Origin: Candidatus Abyssobacteria bacterium SURF_5
Lineage (GTDB): Bacteria > Abyssobacteria > SURF-5
NCBI GenBank assembly: GCA_003598085.1
Contig: QZKU01000035.1
Location: 1 to 20,650 of the forward strand
Direction of reading: 5' to 3'
Length of the DNA stretch: 20,650 nt
The notes beneath the pieces are model-generated. The model did not search any database. It was given only the letters and a program-made list of their open reading frames with translations, and had not been told where the DNA came from. A program made the position numbers and the translations under genes. Shown piece by piece: positions 1,903 through 18,261 of this stretch (positions are counted from its first letter, which is position 1; the number at the start of each line of letters is the position of its first letter).

Positions 1903-1950
1903 AATTCACCTCTTGAAGGGATTTTTGGGGTGCATCTCGAAGTTCGGTAG

Positions 1951-1966
1951 GGCAAGTATATTTGCC
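1951..1966. promoter_or_regulatory. near-perfect palindrome over the -10 box, possible operator
   Basis: GGCAAGTATATTTGCC is palindromic except for one base pair (arms GGCAA/TTGCC around TATA). It covers the -10 element of the acyl-CoA dehydrogenase promoter. A site in this position would suit a repressor such as the TetR-type regulators of fatty-acid genes, but no such regulator is encoded in the window. The binding role is inference. Confidence 0.4.
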
Positions 1967-1983
1967 GAAATGCACCTTGTCAA
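1955..1983 (-). promoter_or_regulatory. sigma-70-type promoter of acyl-CoA dehydrogenase 1
   Basis: On the minus strand, TTGACA (1978-1983) and TATACT (1955-1960) are separated by exactly 17 bases. This is a full-consensus -35 and a five-of-six -10. Predicted transcription start is about 1948, giving a leader of roughly 45 bases before the ATG at 1902. Confidence 0.8.
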
Positions 1984-2042
1984 ATGCAGGCAGGCTTCGC
2001 TCGCGGAACAGCCCGCCGGCACATAGCTTGGAGCCCCGGTGG

Positions 2043-2061
2043 CACAGGCGTCCCGCCTGTG
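2043..2061. repeat. dispersed-type palindrome (8-bp arms)
   Basis: CACAGGCGTCCCGCCTGTG: perfect 8-base arms with a three-base loop. It resembles the second palindrome at 2175-2191 in its AGGC/GCCT core and loop size, which suggests a repeat family. There is no T-tract on either side, so it is unlikely to be a terminator. Confidence 0.65.
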
Positions 2062-2174
2062 ATTTTATGAAGATTTCACTAGTCCCCCAAAACTTAGTAC
2101 CTTTCGCTGGAAATTCGACGCCACCCACCCCTTAGCAAGCTGGAAGACTGCGTAACATGCAATTCCGTCGTAGC

Positions 2175-2191
2175 GCAGGCATCTTGCCTGC
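2175..2191. repeat. dispersed-type palindrome (7-bp arms)
   Basis: GCAGGCATCTTGCCTGC: perfect 7-base arms around a TCT loop. Same architecture and core as the palindrome at 2043-2061, about 115 bases away. Probably two degenerate copies of one interspersed element. Confidence 0.6.
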
Positions 2192-2298
2192 AAGAAAGTC
2201 CGGCGCGTGTGCCGACCGCATGTTTGTTGCTTAAGTGAATGGCATTACTCCCAACCTGCTGCCAACCACAGGCTGAAAGCCCAGCGACAATATCTCCC

Positions 2299-2337
2299 TC
2301 AGAAGAAAAGAGGCAGCAGAAATATCTGCTGCCTCTT
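2299..2337 (-). terminator. intrinsic terminator of acyl-CoA dehydrogenase 2
   Basis: A perfect 13-bp stem (2308-2320 with 2325-2337; arm AAGAGGCAGCAGA) closes a 4-base loop. On the minus strand it is followed by a T-rich run (TTTTCTTCT). It sits 26 bases past the stop codon of the 2363-3598 gene, so it should end that transcript. Confidence 0.8.
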
Positions 2338-2362
2338 GGGCTATTTCGACTTCGGATGAGAT

Positions 2363-3598
2363 CTAATATTTTCCCAGCACCGCTTTTGCGCCGGCAAGCG
2401 CAAGCACCTCGTTGCAGCCGTCCTCGATAAGCGAGGCGCGCGCGTCGCGGAATATCTTCTCGATCGTGTATTCCTTGCTCAAGCCGTAACCGCCGAAGAG
2501 CTGAACGGCATCATTGGCCACTTCAAACGCGGCCTGAGTCGCAGTGATTTTGGCTGCAATCGAAAGCTCGACCGCCGGTGGAAGCGTCTGGCTGTTATAA
2601 ATCAGCGCCGTGCGCGACAACGCCCGGGCCGCTTCCACTTTCCTGAACATGTCGAACAGCTTCTGCTGAATCCACTGATGCTCGACCAGCGGCTTGCCTC
2701 CCTGCACGCGCACCTTGCAGTAATCGAGCGCTTCCTCGAATGCAGCGCGCGCACAGCCGGTGAAGATGGCGCCCATCGCCGCGTTCGCGCCGGCAAGTGT
2801 CATATGCATCGCCATCGGATACATATCCGGCTGCGCGAGCATGTAATTGGCCGGTATCCGAACGTCCTCCAGCACGAACTCGCCCTGATTGAGCGCCCGC
2901 TGGCCGATCTTGTTGAGCGAGCGTCCCTTCTGCACGCCTGGCGAATTCAGCGGAACAATCGCGACTCCGCCGCCGTTCATCCCGCGCGAGGCGTCAATGG
3001 TGAGAAAGGTAAGCGCATGCGTCGCAACGATCCCATTGGACACCCACGATGACTTTTGCCCGTTGATCACCCACTGGTCGCCGTCAAGCTTCGCGGTTGT
3101 CGTAAAGGTAATATTCCCCTTGCTGAACTCCTCAGTCCCAACCACCAGGGAATCCGATCCGTGCTCCGGCTCAGTGATCGCCCAGCATCCAATAAATTTC
3201 GCATCTTTATCCTCGACAAACGGGCGCACAACGTTCTTGATCAGGTCGTCATCCATGCTGTTGGCCGCCGTCGAGAACGGAAACGAGGACACGCCGATCG
3301 CAATGGCAAAGTCGGCGCTCGCCCACCCCATTTCCTCAAGAAATATATGCGTCTCCACCGGCCCAAAACCCATGCCGCCATACATGGGATCGATCGAAGC
3401 CGTATGATAACCCAACTCGTAAGCCTGCTTCATCACCTTCCAAAAAAGCGACCCCTTCTTTATCACATCTTCCGGATCGGCCAGCTTGTCCAACTCCACG
3501 CTTGCCGGCCTCAACACTTCCTTGCAAAACTTGTGGATGCTCTCCTTGAGCGCAACCTGTTCATCCGTAAGAGCGAGAGTTTCCGTATAACGAAGCAT
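2363..3598 (-). CDS. acyl-CoA dehydrogenase (411 aa)
   Basis: Standard-length acyl-CoA dehydrogenase, expected to desaturate an acyl-CoA and reduce electron-transfer flavoprotein. Visible family motifs are the N-terminal helical domain, the FAD/substrate loop CWAITEPEHGSDS (about residues 138-150), the QLFGGYGLSKEYTIEKIFRD helix near the C-terminus, and the closing IEDGCNE segment. Aligned by eye to the IYEGT signature, the catalytic-base position is Asp393, with Glu392 and Glu397 next to it, so the base is unusual. The start is supported by AAAGGAGT upstream of ATG; it has its own promoter (3699-3728) and terminator (2299-2337), so it is monocistronic. Substrate not determinable. Confidence 0.92.
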   Translation of the reverse strand: MLRYTETLALTDEQVALKESIHKFCKEVLRPASVELDKLADPEDVIKKGSLFWKVMKQAYELGYHTASIDPMYGGMGFGPVETHIFLEEMGWASADFAIAIGVSSFPFSTAANSMDDDLIKNVVRPFVEDKDAKFIGCWAITEPEHGSDSLVVGTEEFSKGNITFTTTAKLDGDQWVINGQKSSWVSNGIVATHALTFLTIDASRGMNGGGVAIVPLNSPGVQKGRSLNKIGQRALNQGEFVLEDVRIPANYMLAQPDMYPMAMHMTLAGANAAMGAIFTGCARAAFEEALDYCKVRVQGGKPLVEHQWIQQKLFDMFRKVEAARALSRTALIYNSQTLPPAVELSIAAKITATQAAFEVANDAVQLFGGYGLSKEYTIEKIFRDARASLIEDGCNEVLALAGAKAVLGKY

Positions 3599-4922: not shown

Positions 4923-6260
4923 CTAGCTGATGCCGTAGCGCTTCATCTTGCGCCACAGCGTGTTCCGGGATATTCCCAACTCCGCGGCCGTGCGGTTGCG
5001 ATTGCCGAAATGTTTGGCCAATACCGTGCGAATCGTTTCCGCCTCCGCACTGTCCAACGGAAGAAACTTCGCCTTCTGCGACGCGGCCGTTTCCGTTACC
5101 GATGCAACGATATGGCTGGGCAGATCTTCCAGTTGAATGATGTCTCCGATGCAGACTACAAATGCATGCTCGATCGCGTTCTCCAACTCGCGCACGTTGC
5201 CCGGAAACGAATATCCCATTAGCGCTGCCATTACCCGCTCGGAACATCGAGAGATGCGGCGCCCCTGCAATGCATTGAATCGCTCAATAAAATGATTGAT
5301 CAGCAACGGAATATCCTCTCGCCGCTCGGCCAGCGTCGGCAGCGACAGGCGCACCACGTTCAAGCGGAAATACAGGTCGGAGCGAAAACGCTTCTTCTGG
5401 ACCTCGCGCGCCAGGTTCTTATTCGTGCACGCGATCACTCTGAAGTCGGTCTTAACGGAAGTATTATCGCCGAGCGGAGTAAACTCTTTCGTCTCGAGAA
5501 CGCGCAACAGCTTCACCTGCATTGCCGGCGAGAGATCCCCAATCTCATCGAGCAGAATGGTGCCGTCCGCGGCAATGGCGAATCGCCCCGGTTTGTCTTT
5601 TTTTGCATCGGTGAACGCGCCCTTCTTGTAACCGAACAGTTCCGATTCAAGCAACTGGTCGGGCAACGCCGCGCAGTTAATCGCGAGAAACGGCTTGTTG
5701 CGCCGGGAACTCAAATTGTGGATGGCGCGGGCCACCAGTTCCTTGCCGGTTCCGGATTCGCCTTCTATCAACACATTGCTCTGGCTGTTCGCAACGAGCG
5801 GGATCACCTCGAAAATCTTCTGCATCGAGGGGCTCTTGCTCACGATATCTTCGAATACATATGATCCCAACAGCCGCTTGCGAAGCTCGGCAACCGCAGA
5901 AAGGTCCCGGAACATCTCCACTCCGCCAAGCACACTGCCGTTCTCGTCAATGAGCGCCGACGTCGAGATCGCAATGGGGAGCTTCCGGCCGTCTTTTGTC
6001 GTTACAACCACCTCGACCGCCTCTGAGCGCTCTCTGGTCTTGATACTGCGCTTCAGCGGGCATTCAACTTCACAGAAATCGGCTCGAAATACCCGGTGGC
6101 ACTGCTCACCCAGAACCTCTTCCTTTGTATAACCGGTGAGCATTTCCGCCATTCGATTAAACGACGTAATGCGTCCCTCGGCATCAATGGTAAATATCCC
6201 GTGGGAAATTGTGTCGAAGATCAACGGAAAAAAACGAGTATCGAGTTCCTTTTGTGACAT
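4923..6260 (-). CDS. sigma-54-dependent transcriptional activator, PAS-AAA+-Fis (445 aa)
   Basis: Bacterial enhancer-binding protein. Order: an N-terminal PAS domain (about 10-120), a AAA+ domain with Walker A GESGTGKE (167-174), the sigma-54 contact loop as GAFTDA (214-219; consensus GAFTGA) and Walker B LLDEIGD (Asp238, Glu239), then a C-terminal Fis-type helix-turn-helix (NRNRTAAELGISRNTLWRKMKRYGI). The PAS domain carries Cys54, Cys63 and Cys67 in CHRVFRADFCEVECPL. There is no receiver domain, so the PAS domain is the likely signal input. A start 171 bases further upstream is open, but ATG at 6260 has GGAAGAGGAG in front, begins the PAS domain naturally and lies downstream of the promoter at 6330-6358. 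It is divergent from the redox operon, which has a sigma-54 promoter, so that operon is the likely target. Confidence 0.93.
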   Translation of the reverse strand: MSQKELDTRFFPLIFDTISHGIFTIDAEGRITSFNRMAEMLTGYTKEEVLGEQCHRVFRADFCEVECPLKRSIKTRERSEAVEVVVTTKDGRKLPIAISTSALIDENGSVLGGVEMFRDLSAVAELRKRLLGSYVFEDIVSKSPSMQKIFEVIPLVANSQSNVLIEGESGTGKELVARAIHNLSSRRNKPFLAINCAALPDQLLESELFGYKKGAFTDAKKDKPGRFAIAADGTILLDEIGDLSPAMQVKLLRVLETKEFTPLGDNTSVKTDFRVIACTNKNLAREVQKKRFRSDLYFRLNVVRLSLPTLAERREDIPLLINHFIERFNALQGRRISRCSERVMAALMGYSFPGNVRELENAIEHAFVVCIGDIIQLEDLPSHIVASVTETAASQKAKFLPLDSAEAETIRTVLAKHFGNRNRTAAELGISRNTLWRKMKRYGIS

Positions 6261-6329
6261 CTTGCTCCTCTTCCTCCAATGAACCGTAACAGGGGTGATA
6301 CGAAGAATCGCTAGGGTGATCTCGTTAAA

Positions 6330-6358
6330 AGTATAACACAGACGTTCCAAATTTACAA
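6330..6358 (-). promoter_or_regulatory. sigma-70-type promoter of the activator gene
   Basis: On the minus strand, TTGTAA (6353-6358) and TATACT (6330-6335) are 17 bases apart. Predicted transcription start is about 6323, with a leader of about 63 bases. This excludes the longer open frame beginning at 6431 as the real start. Confidence 0.6.
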
Positions 6359-6452
6359 CATTTGTGACGTGACATGTCTCAGCGATGGAACTCGTCCGCA
6401 CGCCGCATTGAGTCGGGAAAAGGCTGCTCATCCGGTTGTGGTTGCCTTTTTC

Positions 6453-6548: not shown

Positions 6549-6564
6549 CGGCCCAATTCTTGCC
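6549..6564 (+). promoter_or_regulatory. sigma-54 (-24/-12) promoter of the redox operon
   Basis: CGGCCC-AATTC-TTGCC fits TGGCAC-N5-TTGC at eight of ten consensus positions, with the invariant GG (6550-6551) and GC (6562-6563) exactly 10 bases apart. Predicted transcription start is about 6575. The match is strengthened by the divergent sigma-54 activator gene and the palindrome cluster upstream. Confidence 0.75.
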
Positions 6565-6622
6565 CTCTATGAGAGAAACAACCCCTGTTAAATCACCCCG
6601 GTTAAATGAGCAGGATCAGGTT

Positions 6623-8005
6623 ATGACCACCAAATATCCCTATTATGTGGAGCCGTATAACGAGACGGAGCGGCCGCGTCGGTTCCTGGAGGCGTTTTCA
6701 GCCATTCTCCAGCACAGCAACTATGGGTTTGTTCTCGACACCTATTCGAAGATAACAACCAAATGCGCCCGTTGCGCCTGTAACTGCCAGGTTTTCATGG
6801 AAAGCGGAGAGCTGAGAGATGTCCCATGTCACCGGACTGAACTTCTTCTCAGGGTCTACCGCCGGTACTTCACGCTCGGCGGAATGGTGAGTTCGAGACT
6901 CTTCAATGGATTCACCCTCACCGACCGCTACATCGATGAGATGGCTGAAAACTTTTATCGATGCACCGCGTGCCGGCGCTGCAAGTTCGGCTGCCCGATG
7001 GGGGTCGACCACGGCTTGATGACCCACCTCGCCCGCTGGATACTCGCCGAAATCGGGATCGTGCCGAAAGCGCTCGTCGTGGCGGTACGTGAACAGTTGC
7101 AGGGAAAGACCGGGAACACATCGGCCATCCCTGTCGTCGCCCTCAAAGATACATGCGAATTCCTGGAAGAAGAACTCCTGGAGAATTACAACATTCCGGC
7201 GAAATTCCCGATGGATGTCGAAGGCGCGGAAATGGTCTTTTTCCCGGCGGTCAGCGATTACCTCCTCGAACCCGATACCTTGATGGGCAACGCAGCCGTC
7301 ATGCATCTCACCAACGGCTCGTGGACCATCGGCACCGGCTACTACGATGGCATTAATTACGGCCTTTTTTACAGCGATACCCATCTCTGCAACATCGTCC
7401 GAAAGGAAGCCGCCGAAGTGAAGAGGTTGAAGGCAAAGAAGGTCCTTATCGGCGAGTGCGGCCACGCCTCGCGCTCGGCAAAGGCATTCATTCCCACCTT
7501 CTGCGGAGGCAAGAAAGCTCCGCCGGTCATCAATATCATGGAATACTCCCACAAGGCGCTCCTTGACGGGCGGCTGAAGGTGAAATCGGGCGCAATCCTC
7601 GATCGCGTCACGTATCACGACCCGTGTAATATCGCGCGCTCGAAATGGATCATCAATCAGCCGCGGGAACTGCTCGAGGCGATCTGTAAAGATTATGTCG
7701 ACATGGTTCCGGGCGGCCAGATGAATATCTGTTGCGGCGGCGGCGGCGGAACGGTTTCGATCGATGAAATCCGCAAGTTCCGAACGGGCACGGGCGGCCA
7801 TGTCAAGGCCGAACAGATAAAGGCGACCGGCGCAAAATACGTTGTGGCTCCCTGCGCGAACTGCAAAAAACAGCTCCGTGAGGTCTGCGAGGATAACGGA
7901 TTGCACGATGTCGAGATCGTCGGCCTGCATGACTTGCTGTTGAAAGCGCTCGACCTGGAATACTACGGCATAACCGCACCGGAGAAGAAAGAGGAAGAGG
8001 AATAA
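6623..8005 (+). CDS. HdrD/DsrK-like Fe-S oxidoreductase subunit (460 aa)
   Basis: Cytoplasmic catalytic-type subunit of an Hdr-related membrane complex. The N-terminal half has two cluster motifs: KCARCACNC (Cys48, 51, 55, with Cys69 a possible fourth ligand) and CTACRRCKFGCP (Cys114, 117, 120, 124). The C-terminal half has one CCG module: DPCNIARS (Cys335), CCGGGGG (Cys370-Cys371) and CANC (Cys411, 414). This matches the non-cubane cluster site of HdrB/HdrD and the layout of DsrK, HmcF and TmcB. The ATG at 6623 is chosen because AGGA stands 7 bases upstream and because the upstream TTG (6560) and ATG (6569) lie in or before the sigma-54 promoter. Physiological substrate unknown. First gene of the operon; the next starts 2 bases after its stop. 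Confidence 0.88.
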   Translation: MTTKYPYYVEPYNETERPRRFLEAFSAILQHSNYGFVLDTYSKITTKCARCACNCQVFMESGELRDVPCHRTELLLRVYRRYFTLGGMVSSRLFNGFTLTDRYIDEMAENFYRCTACRRCKFGCPMGVDHGLMTHLARWILAEIGIVPKALVVAVREQLQGKTGNTSAIPVVALKDTCEFLEEELLENYNIPAKFPMDVEGAEMVFFPAVSDYLLEPDTLMGNAAVMHLTNGSWTIGTGYYDGINYGLFYSDTHLCNIVRKEAAEVKRLKAKKVLIGECGHASRSAKAFIPTFCGGKKAPPVINIMEYSHKALLDGRLKVKSGAILDRVTYHDPCNIARSKWIINQPRELLEAICKDYVDMVPGGQMNICCGGGGGTVSIDEIRKFRTGTGGHVKAEQIKATGAKYVVAPCANCKKQLREVCEDNGLHDVEIVGLHDLLLKALDLEYYGITAPEKKEEEE

Positions 8006-8007
8006 CC

Positions 8008-8712
8008 ATGGAACAGTGGCTTGAATGGGCGCGCGGCCCACTATTCAAATTCGCGTTCGCGGTGATGGTCCTGGGGCTCTTCCGTCACCTGCTGTTAGCC
8101 GTTGCCGGCACCGTGCAGGCGTTGCTTCGGGCTGGCGACACAAAGATACCCTATAAGGTTGTTTTCCGGACAACGCTCGACTGGCTGTTCCCCGTTAAAA
8201 AGATGAATGTTAACCGGCCGGTCTACAGCGTGATCTCCGTCATCTTCCACGTGGGGCTCATCCTGACCCCCATTTTCCTGCTCCCGCACATCCAGCTCTG
8301 GGAACGCGGACTTTCAATAAGATGGCCCGCCATCCCCCACGTTCTGGCAGACATGTTGACACTCATCACGATTGCGGCGACTGTCGCACTCCTCATCGGC
8401 CGACTCGGTCACATCTATGCCAGAGGCATCAGCAGAATACAGGATATCCTGCTCCCGCCCCTGCTGATGGTCCCGTTCATAACCGGGTTTCTGGCTATGC
8501 ATCCGGCGTGGAATCCCGTCGATTACAACGCCGTTATGCTCATACACGTCTTGAGCGCGAACCTGATCTTCATCTTGATCCCGTTCACGAAACTGGGACA
8601 TATCATCCTGCTTCCGGCAACGCAGCTCGTCTCGGAGGTGGGCTGGCATTTCCCGGCGGAATCCGGCGATGATGTTGCCGTCGCACTGAAGAAAGAGAAT
8701 ATGCCGATATGA
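8008..8712 (+). CDS. NarI/DsrM-like cytochrome b membrane subunit (234 aa)
   Basis: Integral membrane subunit predicted to carry b-type heme and exchange electrons with the quinone pool. About five hydrophobic segments are visible (near residues 10-32, 68-92, 105-128, 146-166 and 178-200), with histidines in or near them (for example in FRHLLL, IFHVGL, LIHVLSAN, LGHIILL) that could bind heme. Length fits DsrM, TmcC or HmcE-type proteins. A strong purine-rich ribosome-binding site lies in the end of the preceding gene, and the stop overlaps the next start (ATGA), so translation is coupled. Confidence 0.85.
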   Translation: MEQWLEWARGPLFKFAFAVMVLGLFRHLLLAVAGTVQALLRAGDTKIPYKVVFRTTLDWLFPVKKMNVNRPVYSVISVIFHVGLILTPIFLLPHIQLWERGLSIRWPAIPHVLADMLTLITIAATVALLIGRLGHIYARGISRIQDILLPPLLMVPFITGFLAMHPAWNPVDYNAVMLIHVLSANLIFILIPFTKLGHIILLPATQLVSEVGWHFPAESGDDVAVALKKENMPI

Positions 8713-9539
8713 GACAGATGAGCATTTTGACCGATGTCACCAAATGTATCGGGTGCGAAGAGTGCGTCAAAGCCTGCAAGGAAACGAACAAGACCGGCGA
8801 AGACCAGCCCTGGCGCTGGCAGCGCAAAATCGACGATCTCTCGGCTACCCGGTGGACGACGATTCTACCCCGGCCCGACAGGCACTACGTGCGAAAACAG
8901 TGCCGCCATTGTCTGGAACCAGCCTGCGCCTCGGTTTGCCCCGTCGGCGCTATGCACAAAACGCCGGAAGGTCCCGTCGTCTATAACTCGAAAATCTGCA
9001 TGGGCTGCCGCTATTGCATGATGGCCTGCCCCTATGGCATTCCCCGCTACACCTGGGCCGATGCCGTCCCTTACGTGCGCAAGTGCATCATGTGCTACGA
9101 CAAGATATCGAGCGGTGAGCTCGAGCAGCCTGCGTGCACCAAGGCCTGCCCGAAAGAGGCAACCATTTATGGAGAGCGCGAGGAACTGATTCGACTGGCG
9201 CATGGAAGAATCGAGGAAAACCCGGATCTGTATATCCCGAAGGTATTCGGCGAACATGAGGTCGGCGGAACTTCGGTCCTGTATCTGTCGGACATCGATC
9301 TCGGCTTCCTCGGATGGAAAGAAGACTTGGGCGATGAACCGCTCCCCATGAAGACCTGGGTGGTACTCAATAAAGTGCCCGGCATCTTCGTCGGCGTCGG
9401 CGTGACGATGTTCGGGCTTTACTGGATAATCGATCGCCGGATGCGCCTGCAGGAAGAAGCGCTCGAAAAAAAATCCGCATCAACCGATGCTCAGCATGAC
9501 CCCGAAACAGGTACAGATAAAGTAGAGGCGAAAAAATGA
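8709..9539 (+). CDS. four-cluster ferredoxin subunit with C-terminal membrane anchor, HybA/DsrO-like (276 aa)
   Basis: Electron-wire subunit with four [4Fe-4S] motifs: CIGCEECVKAC (near the N-terminus), CRHCLEPACASVC, CMGCRYCMMAC and CIMCYDK...ACTKACP. A hydrophobic segment near residues 219-238 (VPGIFVGVGVTMFGLYWII) should anchor it, followed by a charged tail. This is the HybA/HmcB/DsrO type that pairs with an NrfD-like protein. Unlike DsrO and HybA it has no twin-arginine or other signal peptide, and the upstream gene overlap leaves no room for one, so the cluster domain is probably cytoplasmic. It overlaps both neighbours by four bases. Confidence 0.88.
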   Translation: MRQMSILTDVTKCIGCEECVKACKETNKTGEDQPWRWQRKIDDLSATRWTTILPRPDRHYVRKQCRHCLEPACASVCPVGAMHKTPEGPVVYNSKICMGCRYCMMACPYGIPRYTWADAVPYVRKCIMCYDKISSGELEQPACTKACPKEATIYGEREELIRLAHGRIEENPDLYIPKVFGEHEVGGTSVLYLSDIDLGFLGWKEDLGDEPLPMKTWVVLNKVPGIFVGVGVTMFGLYWIIDRRMRLQEEALEKKSASTDAQHDPETGTDKVEAKK

Positions 9540-11488
9540 TACGAGTTAGGTTCGTCAAAGGAATTCTCTGGTTTCTTGTCGGACTGGCCGCAGCCGTCAC
9601 CATCTTCCGTTTCCTCAAAGGGCTGGGCACGGTGACCGCTCTAACAGATACAACCCCGTGGGGACTGTGGATAGGATTCGATGTGCTCGGGGGCGTTGCC
9701 CTCGCCGCAGGCGGGTTCGTGATCGCGGCAACAGTCTACATCTTCCATCTAAAAAAATATGAGCCTATCCTGAGGCCTGCCGTTCTTACCGCTTGTTTGG
9801 GATATGCAGCCGTCGTCGGCGGGCTGATGTTCGACATCGGTATTCCGTGGAACATCTGGCGTCCAATGTTTTTCTGGCAGGAGCACTCGGCCCTGTTCGA
9901 GGTCGCATGGTGCGTCATGCTCTATTTCACCGTGCTGCAGCTCGAATTCCTGCCGGTCATTCTTGAAAAGTTCAAACACCCGCTGTCACAAACAGCATAC
10001 AAGATACTGAAATTCTTTACTCTGCCGCTGGTGATCCTCGGCATCATGCTCTCGACGCTGCATCAGTCGTCCCTGGGCACCCTGTTTCTGATCATGCCGC
10101 ATCGCCTGCATCCGTTGTGGTATAGCCCCATCATCCCGCTTCACTTCTTCGTTTCCGCCATCGGGCTCGGGCTGACCATGGTCATCACTGAATCCCTGGT
10201 GAGCAGTTGGATCTATAAGAAACACCTGGAGAAAGACCTTCTTTCAGGTCTTGCAAAGGCGGCGGCAATCGTTCTGTGGGCATACGCCGCAATCAAGGTA
10301 GCCGATCTTGCGGCCACGGGAAAACTGCACTATCTGTTTGCCGGCACTTGGGAGAGCAACCTGTTCCTGTTCGAATTGCTCATCAGCGCGATTCTGCCGG
10401 CCGCGCTGTTTTCCTCCGCTAAAGCAAGGCAATCGACCGGCGGTCTGGCTGCGGGAGCAGGGCTTGCCGTATTCGGCTTTGTCCTGAACCGGATTGCCGT
10501 CAGCGGGCTTGCAACGATTTCTGCAACGCAGACCGATTATTTCCCGTCATGGACCGAGTTCGCCATTAGCATCGGGATCGTCTCAGCCGCCGGCTTGGCA
10601 TTCTTCTTTCTAGTAGAGAACTTCTATGTGTACGATGAGCCGCGAGCCGAAAAACGCGATAAGTATGAGATCGTTTCACCTGACCCGGTTGGAGGTATCC
10701 GGCTCCATTGGTCGAGCCTGGCCGATGCGCGCCTGTACTCGTTGCTGTTCGTTGTCGCTCTCGCGCTCGGAATCGCCCTGATGCCCAATATCGTTACCGG
10801 CGTAACCCCGGAGAGGATCGAGGTCGAAAAGGCGCGGCGGGTCGATGCCTTCCGCTCAAAATCCGACGCCTCGCCGCTTTACCTGTATGCCCTTTATAAT
10901 CCCGATGAGCACGACAACCCGGAGGCCGGAGAGGTCGCAGAAATGCTGTTGATCGATGGCGACCGCAATAACAAATTCGTCCTGTTCGACCACGGCACGC
11001 ACGAGAAAAACAATGGCGGACCAGAATCCTGCGGGATGTGCCACCACATGAACAAACCGTTGGATAAAGCTACTTCCTGTTATGAATGCCATACGGATAT
11101 GTTTCTCACGACCGACACGTTTCAGCACGAATATCATCGCGAGAAGCTGAAGGAGCAAGGCGGATGCGTTAAATGCCATAAGGACCCGGCTGAACCGAAG
11201 ACCCGCGAAACGGCTACCGCCTGCGGCGAATGTCACAAAAACATGCGGGTTCCCAACAGCTTCGTCAAAGTGGAAGAAGCCGATCAGACCGGGATTGCGC
11301 CCGGGTACATGAATGTAATGCATAAGCTGTGCATCGAATGCCACAAGCAGAAGCAGGAAGAAAAGGTCGAGCTGGCTCCCGATCTCGCCCGCTGCGCCGC
11401 ATGCCATCAGGGTCTGGATGAGTCGATGCTCATGGTAGTCGAGCCGTATCCGCAACCCCAGAGCATGTCGCTCCTGACGCAGCGATAA
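9536..11488 (+). CDS. NrfD/DsrP-like membrane protein fused to a six-heme cytochrome c domain (650 aa)
   Basis: The first ~420 residues form a polytopic NrfD/HybB/HmcC-type protein with around ten hydrophobic segments, expected to bind quinone. After the last segment (about 400-420) comes a soluble domain with six CXXCH heme sites: Cys499 (CGMCH), 515 (CYECH), 544 (CVKCH), 563 (CGECH), 599 (CIECH) and 620 (CAACH). Further histidines (FDHGTH, FQHEYH, VMHKL) may be distal ligands. c-type heme attachment requires this domain to be periplasmic. In Dsr and Hmc complexes the NrfD and cytochrome subunits are separate proteins, so this looks like a DsrP-DsrJ or HmcC-HmcA type fusion. It begins in an ATGA overlap with the ferredoxin gene. 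The reading frame is continuous, so an assembly artefact is unlikely. Confidence 0.88.
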   Translation: MIRVRFVKGILWFLVGLAAAVTIFRFLKGLGTVTALTDTTPWGLWIGFDVLGGVALAAGGFVIAATVYIFHLKKYEPILRPAVLTACLGYAAVVGGLMFDIGIPWNIWRPMFFWQEHSALFEVAWCVMLYFTVLQLEFLPVILEKFKHPLSQTAYKILKFFTLPLVILGIMLSTLHQSSLGTLFLIMPHRLHPLWYSPIIPLHFFVSAIGLGLTMVITESLVSSWIYKKHLEKDLLSGLAKAAAIVLWAYAAIKVADLAATGKLHYLFAGTWESNLFLFELLISAILPAALFSSAKARQSTGGLAAGAGLAVFGFVLNRIAVSGLATISATQTDYFPSWTEFAISIGIVSAAGLAFFFLVENFYVYDEPRAEKRDKYEIVSPDPVGGIRLHWSSLADARLYSLLFVVALALGIALMPNIVTGVTPERIEVEKARRVDAFRSKSDASPLYLYALYNPDEHDNPEAGEVAEMLLIDGDRNNKFVLFDHGTHEKNNGGPESCGMCHHMNKPLDKATSCYECHTDMFLTTDTFQHEYHREKLKEQGGCVKCHKDPAEPKTRETATACGECHKNMRVPNSFVKVEEADQTGIAPGYMNVMHKLCIECHKQKQEEKVELAPDLARCAACHQGLDESMLMVVEPYPQPQSMSLLTQR

Positions 11489-11518: not shown

Positions 11519-11926
11519 ATGGCTGGAAAAAAAATTGCCATTATCGATGACGAGCCCGATGTTGTCATTTATCTGACGTCGGCTCTGCAGGATAATGGAT
11601 TCGAAGTTTGTTCCGCACCCAACGCAACTGAAGGATTTGCGCTCATTCGCTCGCAGCGGCCTGATCTTGTATGCCTGGATATTCTTATGCCCGAGGAAAC
11701 CGGATTCTCGCTCTACCGGAAGATCAGGGATGACTCATCTCTCAAGGATATGCGGGTTGTAATCATCAGCGGCTTGAACATCAAGCAGGAGATGCCGCGT
11801 ATCCTCTCTGGAAGAAATGGAGACGCCGCGGCGGTGGAGCCCGATTTTTTTATTGAGAAACCAATCGATTTGCCGCTCTTTATCCATACAGTCCGGCGGC
11901 TCACAGGCGCAGGGGAAGCAGCATGA
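11519..11926 (+). CDS. single-domain response regulator (135 aa)
   Basis: Receiver domain only: acidic pair Asp10-Asp11, phospho-acceptor Asp54 (CLDILMP), IISG and the conserved Lys in EKPID. No output domain, so it probably acts as a phosphate carrier or through protein contact. It begins 30 bases after the redox-complex genes and overlaps the kinase gene by four bases (ATGA), so it belongs to the same operon. A small inverted repeat (CTTCT/AGAAG) in the gap is too weak to call a terminator. Confidence 0.9.
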   Translation: MAGKKIAIIDDEPDVVIYLTSALQDNGFEVCSAPNATEGFALIRSQRPDLVCLDILMPEETGFSLYRKIRDDSSLKDMRVVIISGLNIKQEMPRILSGRNGDAAAVEPDFFIEKPIDLPLFIHTVRRLTGAGEAA

Positions 11927-13734
11927 GCGAGCCCGAATGGCAAAAATGGCTGCGCACGCAACTGTTCGACCAGGTGCCGTGCAATATCGCCATCATCGAC
12001 CGAAAGTACACCATCGTCGACCATAACCGCAATTTCGCGGAACTGTTCGGCGAAGGGAAAGGGTTTCCTTGCTACCAGGTGTACAAAGGCCGCCTCGAAC
12101 GGTGCTCCTCTTGCATGGCGGCGCACACCTTCCAGGATGGCAAGATCCGGATCAATGACGAAGTAGGTGTCGATCGATATGGCCGTCCCGCCCATTATAT
12201 CGTTCATATCGCCCCTATCTTCGGCAAGAATGGAGACATCCCCTACCTGATCGAGATGTCAACCGACGTCACCGAGACCAAGCGTTTGCAGCGGGAATAC
12301 CAGAATCTGTTCGAGCGCGTCCCTTGTTTTGTCGCAGTGCTCAACCGCGATTTCCGCGTCGTCCGCGCTAATGAACGATTCCGCGAAACCTTCGGAGAAA
12401 CGACCGGCCAGCGCTGTTACGAGGTCTTCAAACGCCGCTCAGAAAAGTGCGAGGATTGCCCGGCGGAACTCACCTTCCAGGACGGCCGCCCGCATAGCGG
12501 CTCGCATATCGGCATCAATAAGGAAGGCAATCCGACCTATTATTACGTCACCACGACCGCATTAGCCCGCGGCGGCCCTAATATCCCTCATATCATCGAG
12601 ATGGCGCTCGACGTCACTGAGGTCCATAAGCTGGAAGATGAATTGGAGCGCTCGCATGCATTTCAGAAGACGTTGATCGAAAATTCCGTCGATGGCGTCA
12701 TAGCCACGGATGCGCAGGGACAAGTGATTATTTTTAATCCTGCCGCCAAGAGTATGCTAAAATATGGCGACAGCGATCTGATCGGCCGGCCGCTGCCGCC
12801 GGAGATTTTAAAATTGAAGCCGGAAGACGCGATGGCCGAAGGCCAAAATGAATGCATTCTTCCCGAGACGACGGCGAAGGCAAGCGACGGAGAGGAGATA
12901 CCCGTGCGGCTTTCCTGCATTACGCTCAGGAAGGGAACAGACATGATCGGAACCGCTCTCTTCCTGCAGGACCTGCGCAAAATCAAACAGCTCGAGAAGG
13001 AGAAAATCGACGCCGAACGCCTCGCCGCCGTCGGACAGACGGTCGCGGGACTGGCGCATGGAATCAAGAATATCCTGACCGGGCTCGAGGGCGGCATGTA
13101 CGTCGTGAATTCAGGCCTCCAGAAAGGACAGCAGGACAAGGTCGACGTCGGCTGGGGCATGCTCAAACGCAATATCAGCCGAATATCCAGCCTGGTCAAG
13201 AACCTGCTCAATTTCTCGAAGGGGCGCACTCCGCACGTCACCATCATCAATCCGAACGATATCGTGCGCGACATCATCTCGCTCTATGAGGATGCGGCCA
13301 AGCAGGATGGTATAAAACTCGTGGCCGATACCGATGAAGCCATTGCACCCGCTCCTTTCGATTCCGAGGAGATCCACACGTGCCTCGCCAACCTGGTGTC
13401 GAATGCGCTCGACGCCTGCCAGATGAGCGAGAAAATGGTGTGCAGTGTCGTTATCCGCTGCAGAGATGAGAACGGCAGCATCGTCTTCGAGGTGGCCGAC
13501 GAAGGCGCGGGAATGGATTATGAGATCAAACAGAAAGTATTCACCAACTTCTTCACAACAAAGGGAAGCGGCGGCACCGGGATCGGACTTCTCCTGACGA
13601 GAAAAATCGTGCAGGAACATGGTGGCAGAATAAGTGTAGAATCTACGCCGGGCGAAGGTTCGCTGTTCCGGCTCATTTTCCCCCGCGATCGCCTGCCGCA
13701 GCCTGCGGCAGAAGGGGCTGCCCCGCAAAACTGA
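11923..13734 (+). CDS. PAS-PAS-PAS sensor histidine kinase (603 aa)
   Basis: No transmembrane segment is visible, so it is probably a cytoplasmic sensor. Three PAS domains (about 10-125, 125-250, 255-365) precede the kinase core: the H-box AHGIKNIL with His379, the N-box ANLVSNALDAC, and the G-boxes VADEGAGMD and GTGIGLLL. The H-box has Gly instead of the usual Glu after the histidine. The first two PAS domains each carry Cys-X10-Cys-X2-Cys (Cys50/61/64 and Cys165/176/179), resembling the motif in the PAS domain of the sigma-54 activator at 4923-6260. This suggests metal, Fe-S or thiol sensing. It sits between two receiver-only genes, its probable partners. Confidence 0.92.
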   Translation: MSEPEWQKWLRTQLFDQVPCNIAIIDRKYTIVDHNRNFAELFGEGKGFPCYQVYKGRLERCSSCMAAHTFQDGKIRINDEVGVDRYGRPAHYIVHIAPIFGKNGDIPYLIEMSTDVTETKRLQREYQNLFERVPCFVAVLNRDFRVVRANERFRETFGETTGQRCYEVFKRRSEKCEDCPAELTFQDGRPHSGSHIGINKEGNPTYYYVTTTALARGGPNIPHIIEMALDVTEVHKLEDELERSHAFQKTLIENSVDGVIATDAQGQVIIFNPAAKSMLKYGDSDLIGRPLPPEILKLKPEDAMAEGQNECILPETTAKASDGEEIPVRLSCITLRKGTDMIGTALFLQDLRKIKQLEKEKIDAERLAAVGQTVAGLAHGIKNILTGLEGGMYVVNSGLQKGQQDKVDVGWGMLKRNISRISSLVKNLLNFSKGRTPHVTIINPNDIVRDIISLYEDAAKQDGIKLVADTDEAIAPAPFDSEEIHTCLANLVSNALDACQMSEKMVCSVVIRCRDENGSIVFEVADEGAGMDYEIKQKVFTNFFTTKGSGGTGIGLLLTRKIVQEHGGRISVESTPGEGSLFRLIFPRDRLPQPAAEGAAPQN

Positions 13735-13788
13735 CGCCTCACAAAGAAAAGTAGTCGAGAATGCCCACTGGCGGCGAAAGGATCAGCA

Positions 13789-14322
13789 ATGACGACTCCA
13801 TCCGAAAAAACAGTCCTGGTGGTGGATGACGAACCCGATATTCTTCTGTTCCTGCAAACGGCGCTCGAGGATGCCGGCTTTAATGTCGTTACTGCTTCCA
13901 ATGGAGATGAGGCGCTCCAAAGAGTAAAAGAATGCCCTCCCGACTTCATCTCCTGCGATCTCGTGATGCCGAAAAAATCAGGCGTGCGATTTCTCTATGA
14001 GCTGAGAAAACATAAGGAATGGGCGCGGATCCCCATCGTCGTAGTCACCGCGCACGCGCGCGATGAATTGGGCTCCAAAGACCTGAAGGAAATCCTCGAC
14101 GGAAAAATCCTTTCCGGCCCGCAGGTGTATCTCGAGAAGCCGGTTCGCGCGGAAGATTTTGTCGGTATGGTCAAACGCGAACTCGGAATCGTGGAGACGG
14201 CGCCTTCAAAAGCCGCGGAATCGACCGACGCCCTGAAAAAACAGGTTCAGGAATTGCTGAATTCCGCCGATCCCGAAGCTCTCAAGGAGGCCGCCCGAAT
14301 ACTTAAGGCAAAAAGAACCTGA
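13789..14322 (+). CDS. response regulator with C-terminal helical tail (177 aa)
   Basis: N-terminal receiver domain with Asp13-Asp14, phospho-acceptor Asp57 (ISCDLVMP), VVVTAHA and LEKPV. The last ~45 residues (TDALKKQVQELLNSADPEAL onward) look helical and charged and do not match a known DNA-binding domain, so the output is probably by protein contact. AAAGGATC precedes the ATG. It starts 54 bases after the kinase gene and is likely the last gene of the operon. Confidence 0.88.
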   Translation: MTTPSEKTVLVVDDEPDILLFLQTALEDAGFNVVTASNGDEALQRVKECPPDFISCDLVMPKKSGVRFLYELRKHKEWARIPIVVVTAHARDELGSKDLKEILDGKILSGPQVYLEKPVRAEDFVGMVKRELGIVETAPSKAAESTDALKKQVQELLNSADPEALKEAARILKAKRT

Positions 14323-14504: not shown

Positions 14505-16358
14505 ATGCTCCACGGGTACGTCGGAAAACTTCTCTATATCGACCTGTCGAAAGAATCCTCCAAACCTTTCCATGTGCCCGAGGAAATCCTGAAGAAATAC
14601 ATTGGCGGGCGCGGGCTCGGAGCAAAGCTGTATTGGGATCTGCTGCCCCCCGATGCCGAACCGCTCGGGCCGAAAAACGTCTTCATGGTTCTCTCCGGAC
14701 CCGTGAGCGGAACAATGGTACCCGGTGCGGGCAAACACGTGATTGTCACCAGATCTCCTGCGACCGGCGCGTGGCTCGACGCCTATTCGAGTGGACGCAT
14801 GGCGCCCGAGATGAAGTTCGCCGGATACGACGGCATCATTATTACCGGGAAAGCCAGAAAACCGACGTATCTGCTCATCCAGGATGAAAAAGTGGATTTT
14901 TGCGACGCCGCTCACCTGTGGGGGAAAGGCTCTTTCGCCGCCGAATCATTCGTGAAAGAAAACTTCCACCCCGACTGCGGCTGCATCTCGATCGGGCCGG
15001 CAGGGGAGAATCTCGTCCATTTCGCGTGCGTCGGAAGCGAATACTTCCGCAAGGCGGGCCGCGGCGGCGCCGGAGCCGTCATGGGCTCAAAGAATCTGAA
15101 GCTGGTGGCAGTCAAAGGAAGCGGCGGCATCACCTGCGCCAACGTTCAGGGCGTGCGCGAACTCGTGCTGCAACATTTCGACAGCTTCATCAACAACCCC
15201 GTTGGGCTGAGCCGGCGCAAATACGGGAGCCCGCTCACCATGACTATCACGAATGCGGCCGGAATGCTGCCCACGCGTAATTTCCAGAAAGGCCGCTTCG
15301 AACAGAGTATCGGCAAAATCGATAAAGACGCCGTCCGCAACGCGAAGATAGCCGATCGCTCCTGCTACGCCTGCTTCGCATCGTGCGGTAAACTGACCGA
15401 GGTGAAGGACGGAATCTTCAAAGGAACCAGGCTCGAAGGGCCTGAATACGAAACGCTCGCGCTGCTCGGCTCTAACCTCGAAATAGATTATCTTCCGGCT
15501 GTCATCAAAGGAAATTATCTGTGCGACGATCTCGGCTTGGATACCATTTCAGCCGGCGGCGTCATCGGGTTCGCGATGGAATGCTTCGAACGCGGCATCC
15601 TGACTAAAGAAGATACGGACGGGCTGGAGCTCAAATTCGGCAACTATGAGGCGGCCCTGAAGCTGCTCGAATTAATCGCGCACCGCAAGGGCTTCGGCGA
15701 CTTCTGCGCCCGCGGCGTCAGGGACATGGCGAAGGAGCTTGGCCGCGGCACCGAAGCGTTCGCCATGCACTGCAAAGGAATGGAACTGCCCGCTTACGAT
15801 CCCCGCGCCGGCTGGGGTGCGGCCATCACCTATTCCGTCACCCCGCGCGGCGGCTGTCACCGGCGGGCGTGGCCCCCGCTCCGGGAGGTATTGGGCGGGA
15901 TGGACCCGTTCTCGGCTGAAGAAAAGGCCGCAATGGTAAGAGACATGATGCACGAGACATGCATCATGCACAGCCTGCTCGTGTGCGATGCCCCTCCGAA
16001 AATTATTCCCGCCGGCATTCCGGGCTATTGCCAGTACCTGAATCTCGTTACCGGCATGAATTATTCCGAAGATGATCTTGTCGCACGGGCCGACATCATC
16101 GAGACGCTGATCCGGCGGATCAACGTCAGGCAGGGACTCGGCTCGGAGGAAGACTCTCTCCCCAAACGAATCCTCGAGGAAAGCCTGCCTGAGGGGCCTC
16201 CCAAAGGAAGAGTCATGGGGCTGGACAACTTCCTCAAAATGCGCGCCGAATACTACAAAATCCGCGGGTGGGACAGCGAAGGCGTTCCAACCGCTGAAAC
16301 CATCGCCAAATATGGATTCGAAGGAGAAACGAATCTCGCGAATCAGGTAAAGATTTAA
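14505..16358 (+). CDS. aldehyde:ferredoxin oxidoreductase family tungsten enzyme (617 aa)
   Basis: AOR-family enzyme binding a bis-pyranopterin tungsten (possibly molybdenum) cofactor and one [4Fe-4S] cluster. Cluster ligands fit the family: CYACFASC gives Cys287, 290, 294, plus Cys494; Pyrococcus furiosus AOR uses Cys288, 291, 295, 494. GPEYE (Glu314) and GGCH (His452) align with its catalytic Glu and His. N-terminal motifs GGRGLGAKLYW and SGPVSGTMVPG are typical. AAGGAGGATC precedes the ATG. Expected reaction is oxidation of an aldehyde to the acid with ferredoxin reduction, or the reverse. The related BamB subunit of class II benzoyl-CoA reductase is an alternative that sequence alone does not exclude, but no other bam genes are present. 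First gene of a four-gene operon. Confidence 0.92.
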   Translation: MLHGYVGKLLYIDLSKESSKPFHVPEEILKKYIGGRGLGAKLYWDLLPPDAEPLGPKNVFMVLSGPVSGTMVPGAGKHVIVTRSPATGAWLDAYSSGRMAPEMKFAGYDGIIITGKARKPTYLLIQDEKVDFCDAAHLWGKGSFAAESFVKENFHPDCGCISIGPAGENLVHFACVGSEYFRKAGRGGAGAVMGSKNLKLVAVKGSGGITCANVQGVRELVLQHFDSFINNPVGLSRRKYGSPLTMTITNAAGMLPTRNFQKGRFEQSIGKIDKDAVRNAKIADRSCYACFASCGKLTEVKDGIFKGTRLEGPEYETLALLGSNLEIDYLPAVIKGNYLCDDLGLDTISAGGVIGFAMECFERGILTKEDTDGLELKFGNYEAALKLLELIAHRKGFGDFCARGVRDMAKELGRGTEAFAMHCKGMELPAYDPRAGWGAAITYSVTPRGGCHRRAWPPLREVLGGMDPFSAEEKAAMVRDMMHETCIMHSLLVCDAPPKIIPAGIPGYCQYLNLVTGMNYSEDDLVARADIIETLIRRINVRQGLGSEEDSLPKRILEESLPEGPPKGRVMGLDNFLKMRAEYYKIRGWDSEGVPTAETIAKYGFEGETNLANQVKI

Positions 16359-16359
16359 G

Positions 16360-16641
16360 GTGAAGATCAAGTTCTCGGTTGTTGGTGTCTCAGAAGAATC
16401 TTTCCCGGCGGAACCGGAAAGTCTTCAGGTGAATAGTCGCACGGTTCAGGATTTGCTGGATTCTCTGTTTAATAGGTACGGCGCCCACGCCGCAGCAAAA
16501 CTATTCGATTCAAATGGTCTTCGCCCGGGGCTTTCTTTATTGGTCAACGGCCGCAACGTGCTCTCGCTGCCGGACAGATACCAAACGCGATTGCAGGATT
16601 TAGACGAGATAGTGATCACTGTCCGGGTCACCGGCGGATAG
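16360..16641 (+). CDS. MoaD/ThiS-like ubiquitin-fold protein (93 aa)
   Basis: Small beta-grasp protein ending in Gly-Gly (VTVRVTGG), the mark of sulfur carriers MoaD and ThiS. Expected to donate sulfur for the pyranopterin cofactor, probably dedicated to the tungsten enzyme next to it, as in aor operons where the MoaD-like gene is called aorD. GTG start, one base after the AOR stop codon, with only a weak ribosome-binding site; translational coupling is likely. Slightly longer than E. coli MoaD (81 aa). Confidence 0.85.
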   Translation: MKIKFSVVGVSEESFPAEPESLQVNSRTVQDLLDSLFNRYGAHAAAKLFDSNGLRPGLSLLVNGRNVLSLPDRYQTRLQDLDEIVITVRVTGG

Positions 16642-16654
16642 AGGAGACGCTTCG

Positions 16655-17272
16655 ATGGCAAGAGTTATCACGATTAACGCCGCAAATTGCACAGGATGCC
16701 GCATGTGCGAGCTTGCCTGCTCCAGCTCCAAAGAAAGTGAGTTCAACCCGGACCGCTCGCGAATTAAGGTGATTGACAATCGGCTCGAGGGATGGTCGCG
16801 GCCCTCGGTCTGCCTGCAGTGCGATGAACCTCTGTGCGCGGCAGTGTGCCCGTCGCAGGCGATTTCCACAGCGACTACTGTACAGGGCGACCATGTCGTT
16901 CAAGTGGACCCGGAAAAATGCTATGGGTGCCAAAGCTGCGTGATGGCGTGCCCCTTCGGCGCAATCAGCTTCTTCCCGAAAACAAAAGCGATCAAATGCG
17001 ACCTCTGCGGCGGCTCCCCCGAATGTGTCAAGTTCTGCTTCTATGATTGTCTCTCGATCGTGGAACTGACCGAGCAGATGCAGGCCCAGCGCAAACAAGC
17101 ACTAAAAGCCTTGACGATCAGGGCCTGTCACGAGATCGGAAAAAGAGAAGCCAGGCGCCGCCGCGAACAATTCTCTCAAGAGGCGTCCACCATTGTTCCC
17201 GTCCGGCCGAGGCCTGAGCTCGATCTGCCGGAAATCGATTTCGACCGCATGCTGCGGAAGGAAGAACAATGA
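16655..17272 (+). CDS. four-cluster ferredoxin-like electron-transfer subunit (205 aa)
   Basis: Polyferredoxin of the AorA/DmsB type with motifs CTGCRMCELAC, CLQCDEPLCAAVC, CYGCQSCVMAC and CDLCGGSPECVKFC, sufficient for four [4Fe-4S] clusters. No signal peptide or membrane segment. Residues ~140-205 form a charged tail without cysteines. It probably links the tungsten enzyme to a soluble acceptor or a larger complex, as AorA does in Aromatoleum. GAGGAGA precedes the ATG; it overlaps the next gene by four bases (ATGA). Confidence 0.9.
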   Translation: MARVITINAANCTGCRMCELACSSSKESEFNPDRSRIKVIDNRLEGWSRPSVCLQCDEPLCAAVCPSQAISTATTVQGDHVVQVDPEKCYGCQSCVMACPFGAISFFPKTKAIKCDLCGGSPECVKFCFYDCLSIVELTEQMQAQRKQALKALTIRACHEIGKREARRRREQFSQEASTIVPVRPRPELDLPEIDFDRMLRKEEQ

Positions 17273-18261
17273 GCGCAAAGGTTATCGACGGCCATCGGCA
17301 CTTGATGTGTCTGGATGCGCACCAGCGGGCAAACTCGCTTGACCCGGTTAGGGCAAATGCAATGGGCGGAACCAGCCAGGCGTCCGCCATGGTCAACCTC
17401 GAAAAGGCGCCGGAATGGTTTCGGAAAATGTCCGATTTCGATGAGCATCTTGCCGATATGGATGCGGCAGGCATCGACGTCGGTGTTATCTGGCCGCCGC
17501 CGCCCGGCTTCTATTATTGGGCCGAGCCTTCGGCCGGCGCGGAGCTGGCCCAAATCGTCAATGACAACACCGCCCAAGTCGTTCGCGAGCATCCCGATCG
17601 GCTTGTCGGATTGACCTCGCTCCCTCTGCAGGATCCTTCGTCAGCAACCAGGGAACTGAAGCGGGGAATCCGCGAACTGAACCATAAGGGAGTAGCCATC
17701 GCATCAAACGTAAATGATTCGGGCCTTGACGATGAGGGGCTGCTTCCTTTTTTCGAGCAGGCCGAAGCGCTGGATGTGCCTGTCTTCATTCACCCGGATG
17801 TCACCCACGTTACCGAGCGACTTGGCAAATATTATCTTGTCAATTTTTTGGGATACCCGATGCATACGGCTCTGGCCGCGTGCGAATTGGTTTTCGGAGG
17901 AGTACTTGATCGGTTCCCCAACCTGAAAATATGCCTGGTGCATGCCGGCGGCACGTTGCCGTTTCTCCTCGGTCGGCTTGAGCACGGACAATCGGTCCGC
18001 CCAGAGGCCCGCGAGAAATGTCTTCACCCTTTTCCTTATTACCTGAAGAATTTCTACGTGGATACCATCGCGTTTAATCCGGAAATCCTCCGGTTCGTCT
18101 GCACCATCATGCAAAAAGACCACGTCTTCCTCGGCACCGACTATCCATTCGATATGGCCGATATGGATCCGGTATCGTCGGCCAAAAAAGCGATCACCCA
18201 TGACGATGCAACACTTGATCTTATAATCGGCGATAACCTTCAACGCATCCTGAATATCTGA
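17269..18261 (+). CDS. amidohydrolase_2 family metal-dependent hydrolase or decarboxylase, ACMSD-like (330 aa)
   Basis: TIM-barrel metalloenzyme. Putative ligands follow the ACMSD pattern closely: His9 and His11 (GHRH), His175 (FIHPD), His225 (LVHAGG) and Asp291 (GTDYPFD); ACMSD of Pseudomonas uses His9, His11, His177, His228 and Asp294. Family members are zinc- or manganese-dependent decarboxylases and hydrolases, many acting on aromatic or unsaturated carboxylic acids. The four-base overlap with the ferredoxin gene indicates a shared pathway with the tungsten enzyme, for example a decarboxylation or hydrolysis that forms or consumes its aldehyde or acid. Exact substrate unknown. Confidence 0.88.
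   Translation: MSAKVIDGHRHLMCLDAHQRANSLDPVRANAMGGTSQASAMVNLEKAPEWFRKMSDFDEHLADMDAAGIDVGVIWPPPPGFYYWAEPSAGAELAQIVNDNTAQVVREHPDRLVGLTSLPLQDPSSATRELKRGIRELNHKGVAIASNVNDSGLDDEGLLPFFEQAEALDVPVFIHPDVTHVTERLGKYYLVNFLGYPMHTALAACELVFGGVLDRFPNLKICLVHAGGTLPFLLGRLEHGQSVRPEAREKCLHPFPYYLKNFYVDTIAFNPEILRFVCTIMQKDHVFLGTDYPFDMADMDPVSSAKKAITHDDATLDLIIGDNLQRILNI

Follow-up and report, generated by a model that had tools for sequence, protein, structure and literature searches.

Fusion of an NrfD-type membrane protein with a hexaheme cytochrome c in a compact Hmc-like operon of Candidatus Abyssobacteria bacterium SURF_5

The locus and the fusion gene

The window analysed here is a 20,650-nucleotide stretch of DNA from Candidatus Abyssobacteria bacterium SURF_5 (contig QZKU01000035.1, assembly GCA_003598085.1), which represents an entire contig of a 5.1-Mb draft genome that is 98% complete. 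It carries four consecutive genes in the order HmcF-HmcE-HmcB-(HmcC::cytochrome). The last of them encodes in a single frame an NrfD-type membrane module, an additional transmembrane helix and a cytochrome domain of class III (c3 type) whose six CXXCH motifs lie at residues 499, 515, 544, 563, 599 and 620 (Table 1). An earlier note, made from the sequence alone, had pointed to this frame, and the observation is confirmed by the open reading frame and by the presence of both PF03916 and PF02085 in one protein.

The match to PF03916 (NrfD) reaches 45.7 bits against a cut-off of 25.8 and covers residues 33-322, while PF02085 (Cytochrom_CIII) gives 55.2 bits against 22.9 with the best stretch at 478-567. 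Among the NCBIfam models, the membrane part scores 324 bits with HmcC, 274 with HybB and 114 with QrcD, all under the equivalog cut-offs. The NrfD-type label of the earlier note is therefore correct and can be narrowed to the HmcC/HybB type, the cytochrome being c3/HmcA-like and the complex Hmc-like. Third-position GC is continuous over the junction of the two parts, with no break. Fusion by itself sets the stoichiometry of NrfD module and cytochrome at 1:1, as had been proposed; the hemes may also sit at the quinone site.

Table 1. Features of the operon and its surroundings (positions in the window)
Feature	Positions	Strand	Remarks or basis
HmcC::hexaheme cytochrome fusion gene	9536-11488	+	650 aa, ATG start, no internal stop
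NrfD module (HmcC/HybB type, ten helices, ActC fold), residues 1-370	9536-10645	+	Pfam/NCBIfam; AlphaFold2 (AF2) model
Eleventh transmembrane helix, residues 394-414, predicted to bring the C-terminal domain to the periplasm	10715-10777	+	AF2 model; hydrophobic stretch in 48/48 homologues; positive-inside count
Hexaheme class III-type cytochrome c domain, residues 430-650	10823-11485	+	Six CXXCH; invariant His; PF02085; profile match
HmcF/DsrK-like cytoplasmic iron-sulfur protein, CCG domain	6560-8005 (likely ATG 6623)	+	NCBIfam
HmcE/TmcC-like cytochrome b subunit, five helices	8008-8712	+	NCBIfam
HmcB/HybA-like four-cluster ferredoxin, C-terminal membrane tail, no Tat leader	8709-9539	+	NCBIfam
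Divergent sigma-54-dependent regulator with PAS domain	4923-6431	-	Pfam PF00158
Response regulator (11519-11926), PAS histidine kinase (11923-13734), response regulator (13789-14322)	11519-14322	+	Pfam

Distribution among bacteria

When 84,980 species genomes were scanned for patterns based solely on the cytochrome domain, 56 loci were obtained. The six motifs lie within the fusion frame, or the frame is cut by a contig end, in 52 of them; the remaining four are three distant cytochromes (L101-L103) and one separate cytochrome (L091). At L070 the contig ends so near the cytochrome that fusion cannot be shown there. In the contigs of the scanned genomes, 47 other homologues are full length or nearly so and are 36-74% identical to the fusion of the window. 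The full-length fusion recurs among 98 sampled genomes, with 74% identity in a genome of the same family (G001) and 48% in one of another family (G008), and is found in about 8 of 386 sampled genomes; the organism's own phylum is represented in the sample by three genomes only.

According to record titles and NCBI ranks, the carriers belong to at least eleven phyla: Poribacteria, Myxococcota, Planctomycetota, Gemmatimonadota, Zixibacteria, Acidobacteriota, LCP-89, Electryoneota, Bacteroidota, Calditrichota and Chloroflexota. Nearly all of them are metagenome-assembled genomes (MAGs), so individual phylum assignments may err, but the overall spread rests on no single one. To read the earlier note as describing a one-off case would be wrong; a unique case is ruled out by the 52 loci mentioned above. 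Viral contigs gave no match that includes the cytochrome part, and a viral origin was rejected.

All six CXXCH motifs are kept in the aligned set of 48 sequences (the window and the 47 homologues). H486, H504, H531, H534 and H596 are invariant throughout this set, and H489 is present in 39 sequences. As six additional histidines stand against six hemes, the alignment suggests bis-histidine coordination, the sixth ligand being uncertain in nine sequences.

Joining of two genes through a sequencing error is hardly credible. The window is one draft MAG contig, which leaves some room for such an artefact; however, the 47 full-length independent homologues share the conserved junction and heme spacing, and a carefully built tree with 87 NrfD modules unites hexaheme and pentaheme fusions in one clade with support of 100/100. 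Since independent MAGs carry the same fusion, chance, misassembly and frameshift are excluded.

The pentaheme variants (L118, 1408-3345; L119, 638-2773) miss one of the six CXXCH motifs, apparently the third. One of the distant cytochromes (L102, 4601-6547) is a 648-aa protein with 26 CXXCH motifs.

Membrane topology and the cytochrome domain

The AF2 model of the fusion has a mean predicted local distance difference test score (pLDDT) of 79.6 and a predicted template modelling score (pTM) of 0.72. Predicted helices and hydropathy show ten NrfD helices and an eleventh directly ahead of the cytochrome. The NrfD part of the model superimposes on ActC of alternative complex III (ACIII) with Z 33.3 over 361 residues and a root-mean-square deviation of 3.3. 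Lysine and arginine are much more numerous on the inferred negative (N) side loops than on the positive (P) side loops (17.6 vs 4.6), and in 48/48 sequences the first five loops carry more of these residues on the N side. This bias, together with the eleventh helix, predicts that the N-terminus of the NrfD module is inside and the cytochrome outside. Heme attachment takes place outside, on the periplasmic side. No cleavable signal peptide is needed, as the earlier note had argued, because the extra helix would place the cytochrome outside.

The sequence profile of the cytochrome domain finds the 16-heme cytochrome 1z1n at E 5e-26 and also HmcA, the nearest relatives being cytochromes with 16 and with nine hemes from sulfate reducers. 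The domain modelled alone, without hemes, gave no Foldseek match at E 0.001; a second comparison ranked cytochrome c3 first with Z of just 5.5.

Partner genes

HmcF, HmcE and HmcB genes lie directly upstream of the fusion gene in 41 of the 43 fusion loci with enough upstream sequence. The HmcF-like protein scores 245 bits with DsrK and 197 bits with HmcF of NCBIfam, both under the equivalog cut-offs, and its two four-cysteine cluster motifs and CCG cysteines are invariant in 43 homologues. The HmcE-like protein likewise remains under the cut-offs (TmcC, 126 bits; HmcE, 116 bits); its H94 and H180 are present in 48/48 homologues, H81 and H198 in 46/48. The HmcB-like protein matches the HmcB model with 248 bits from profile position 37 on, and 16 cysteines as well as R243 and R244 are invariant in 47 homologues.

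Flank clustering of the loci found the family of the sigma-54 regulator in 22, of the kinase in 32 and of the receiver in 26 loci. Under a strict adjacency rule, the kinase is present in 20/39 loci and the sigma-54 regulator in 13/31. The window also contains a cluster of aldehyde ferredoxin oxidoreductase (AOR), MoaD-like protein, ferredoxin and amidohydrolase genes (14505-18261), which is not conserved beside other fusion loci, and acyl-CoA dehydrogenase family genes on the minus strand (202-3598; 202-1902 by Pfam, 2363-3598 apparently a second one). A functional link to either group was rejected, since neither is conserved at other loci. At L059 (3975-4742) and L096 (3261-4238), PF02579 (dinitrogenase iron-molybdenum cofactor) genes are situated shortly upstream of HmcF, one of them with DUF1847; members of the two families recur at 11 and 4 fusion loci, respectively.

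The HmcB-like subunit lacks a twin-arginine translocation (Tat) leader in every readable fusion locus. Its first cluster cysteine is residue 13 in the window, and in most fusion loci it follows some 10-19 residues after the start. Longer HmcB frames are overlong open frames with no recognisable leader; four of them were flagged for Tat automatically, but the flagged letters belong to upstream read-through. Other Hmc-like loci encode HmcB with clear Tat leaders. The same charge pattern is kept around the C-terminal tail helix, with 1.6 lysines and arginines before and 4.2 after it in the leaderless HmcB vs 1.3 and 3.7 in the exported form. A leaderless HybA-like protein has been described together with a leader-bearing FeFe hydrogenase as its presumed export partner (PMC10924467). 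No leader-bearing export partner was seen in the operon of the window.

It is conceivable, and proposed here only tentatively, that the fusion loci represent a distinct complex family of single origin, in which the leaderless HmcB is cytoplasmic beside HmcF and the NrfD-fused cytochrome replaces the periplasmic iron-sulfur wire. If HmcB is cytoplasmic, NrfD would be wired from the side opposite to that in Hmc, Hyd-2, Psr and ACIII.

Two further loci (L133, 1558-3705; L134, 1516-3678) encode a natural fusion in which a Tat-leader HmcB and HmcC make up a single protein of about 720 aa; the possible topology of the leader-bearing type is thereby restricted.

Origin of the single chain

In the wider quick tree, the sole unfused row inside the fusion clade is L012, which runs off a contig end. 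The 87-module tree contains a separate second fusion, of NrfD to a triheme domain, which is of independent origin. In the sister clade of the fusions, the NrfD gene of L015 overlaps a gene for a membrane-anchored triheme cytochrome, plausibly a pre-fusion state. The Spirochaete locus L091 (6745-9438) encodes HmcF, HmcE and then, on a protein of its own that begins with a single helix, the hexaheme domain; no NrfD match was found in the genome of this bacterium. As all three occur there without NrfD, the hexaheme cytochrome pairs with the HmcF/HmcE module. These two loci suggest that an NrfD gene was joined to a membrane-anchored cytochrome gene and that the anchor of the cytochrome turned into helix 11.

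The triheme fusion (L128, 1471-3015; L131, 1351-2985) consists of NrfD, a helix and a triheme cytochrome and stands beside a leaderless HmcB, with no HmcF/HmcE nearby.

Proposed function

The fusion is probably the final component of a compact respiratory complex of the Hmc type that links the cytoplasm or menaquinone with periplasmic cytochromes. This reading is supported by the conserved HmcF, HmcE and HmcB genes upstream, the invariant cofactor ligands, the ActC fold of the NrfD part, the c3/HmcA affinity of the cytochrome and the pairing seen at L091. In such a complex, HmcF would exchange electrons with a cytoplasmic partner, and the b hemes of HmcE would conduct them across the membrane, or HmcE would hand them to menaquinone. 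The c-heme domain would exchange electrons with periplasmic cytochromes, taking the role of the separate HmcA, DsrJ, QrcA or ActA, and the HmcB/NrfD pair could contribute a quinone step and possibly ion translocation. It has been proposed that in many respiratory complexes the NrfD protein acts as the ion pump (PMC8076601).

In this organism, electrons would more likely flow outward, from menaquinol or the cytoplasm into an acceptor chain in the periplasm that involves neither sulfite nor oxygen via a haem-copper oxidase. Outward transfer is favoured because the organism's own genome has no dsrA (TIGR02064) match over the cut-off, neither a haem-copper oxidase nor an NiFe hydrogenase was found in it, and yet it encodes c3-type cytochromes elsewhere. 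As partners in this genome, Dsr, NiFe hydrogenase and haem-copper oxidase are therefore unsupported. In the opposite flow, of the kind proposed for the Desulfovibrio Hmc, periplasmic cytochromes, fed for example by formate or extracellular donors, would reduce the hexaheme domain and electrons would proceed to HmcF in the cytoplasm. This inward flow appears unlikely here, given the lack of NiFe hydrogenase and of dsrA over the cut-off and the fact that the conserved neighbours of the operon include no periplasmic donor enzyme.

Three observations weigh against the Hmc-type complex as proposed. Flank clustering across the loci revealed no donor or acceptor gene conserved beside the operon. The membrane side of the four iron-sulfur clusters of HmcB is uncertain, because the protein has no Tat leader and no leader-bearing partner is encoded. 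Finally, two loci of Phycisphaerae (L068 and L100) keep HmcE and HmcB with no recognisable HmcF upstream.

The last of these speaks for a complex similar to ACIII or Qrc, in which the NrfD/HmcB module would mediate electron exchange between menaquinol and the c hemes, with HmcF/HmcE as a side branch. Those complexes, too, bring together a multiheme cytochrome with an NrfD and an iron-sulfur protein, and the NrfD part of the fusion matches ActC with Z 31-33. However, no ActB/QrcB-like molybdopterin-fold subunit was recognised in the window (Pfam/NCBIfam) or in the named flanking families, HmcF and HmcE are kept in nearly all loci, and a leaderless HmcB may not reach the periplasmic face; such an arrangement is regarded as improbable. 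The Hmc-type complex with the fused cytochrome as its last subunit is retained as the preferred reading.

Relation to known complexes

The fusion is real and conserved. It amounts to a compact form of a respiratory complex that is already known, made by rearranging familiar modules, and is apparently undescribed. Full-text literature searches found NrfD and multiheme cytochromes only as separate subunits; subscription papers are largely outside the coverage of these searches, and an earlier mention is possible. The earlier note had considered that the fusion might prove common and already characterised: it is indeed widely conserved, but no characterisation was found in the literature. The link between the NrfD quinone site and its redox partners is unsettled, and an NrfD-cytochrome of one chain fixes the partner, the stoichiometry and the membrane side, which would aid structural and electrochemical work. 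The fusion family can also serve as a simple marker for the respiratory module across many mostly uncultured phyla.

The known complexes named in the earlier note do keep the NrfD-like protein and the multiheme cytochrome as separate subunits, as it stated. The Hmc complex of Desulfovibrio (HmcABCDEF) has 16 hemes on a subunit of their own, HmcA, and its iron-sulfur protein HmcB is tail-anchored (PMC10924467). The operon of the window resembles it in having HmcF, HmcE, HmcB and HmcC-type subunits in one operon and a c3-type multiheme cytochrome. It differs in that a separate 16-heme HmcA is missing and a six-heme domain is fused to HmcC instead. None of the equivalog cut-offs is reached (HmcC 324/550, HmcB 248/420, HmcF 197/750 and HmcE 116/275 bits), and HmcB is leaderless, whereas a Tat leader on the HmcB of Hmc is inferred from the first 36 positions of the profile and from leader-bearing relatives.

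DsrMKJOP likewise unites a CCG iron-sulfur protein, a NarI-type cytochrome b, a ferredoxin, an NrfD protein and a membrane-anchored cytochrome c. Its cytochrome DsrJ, a triheme protein, is a separate subunit. DsrMKJOP operates together with DsrAB of the same genome, and the fusion genome lacks dsrA over the cut-off. ACIII and Qrc share with the window the NrfD fold (ActC, Z 33) beside a membrane-anchored multiheme cytochrome (ActA, QrcA). They possess a separate cytochrome subunit and a molybdopterin-fold subunit and have no HmcF/HmcE module. The Tmc-type complex is similar to the layout of L091 (HmcF, HmcE and hexaheme domain, no NrfD); the complex of the window adds HmcB and the fused NrfD, and TmcA, by its NCBIfam name, is a separate tetraheme cytochrome. 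The NrfD-triheme fusion of L128 and L131 also combines an NrfD protein, an extra helix and a c-type cytochrome in one chain, but it has three hemes, arose independently and has no HmcF/HmcE in its vicinity.
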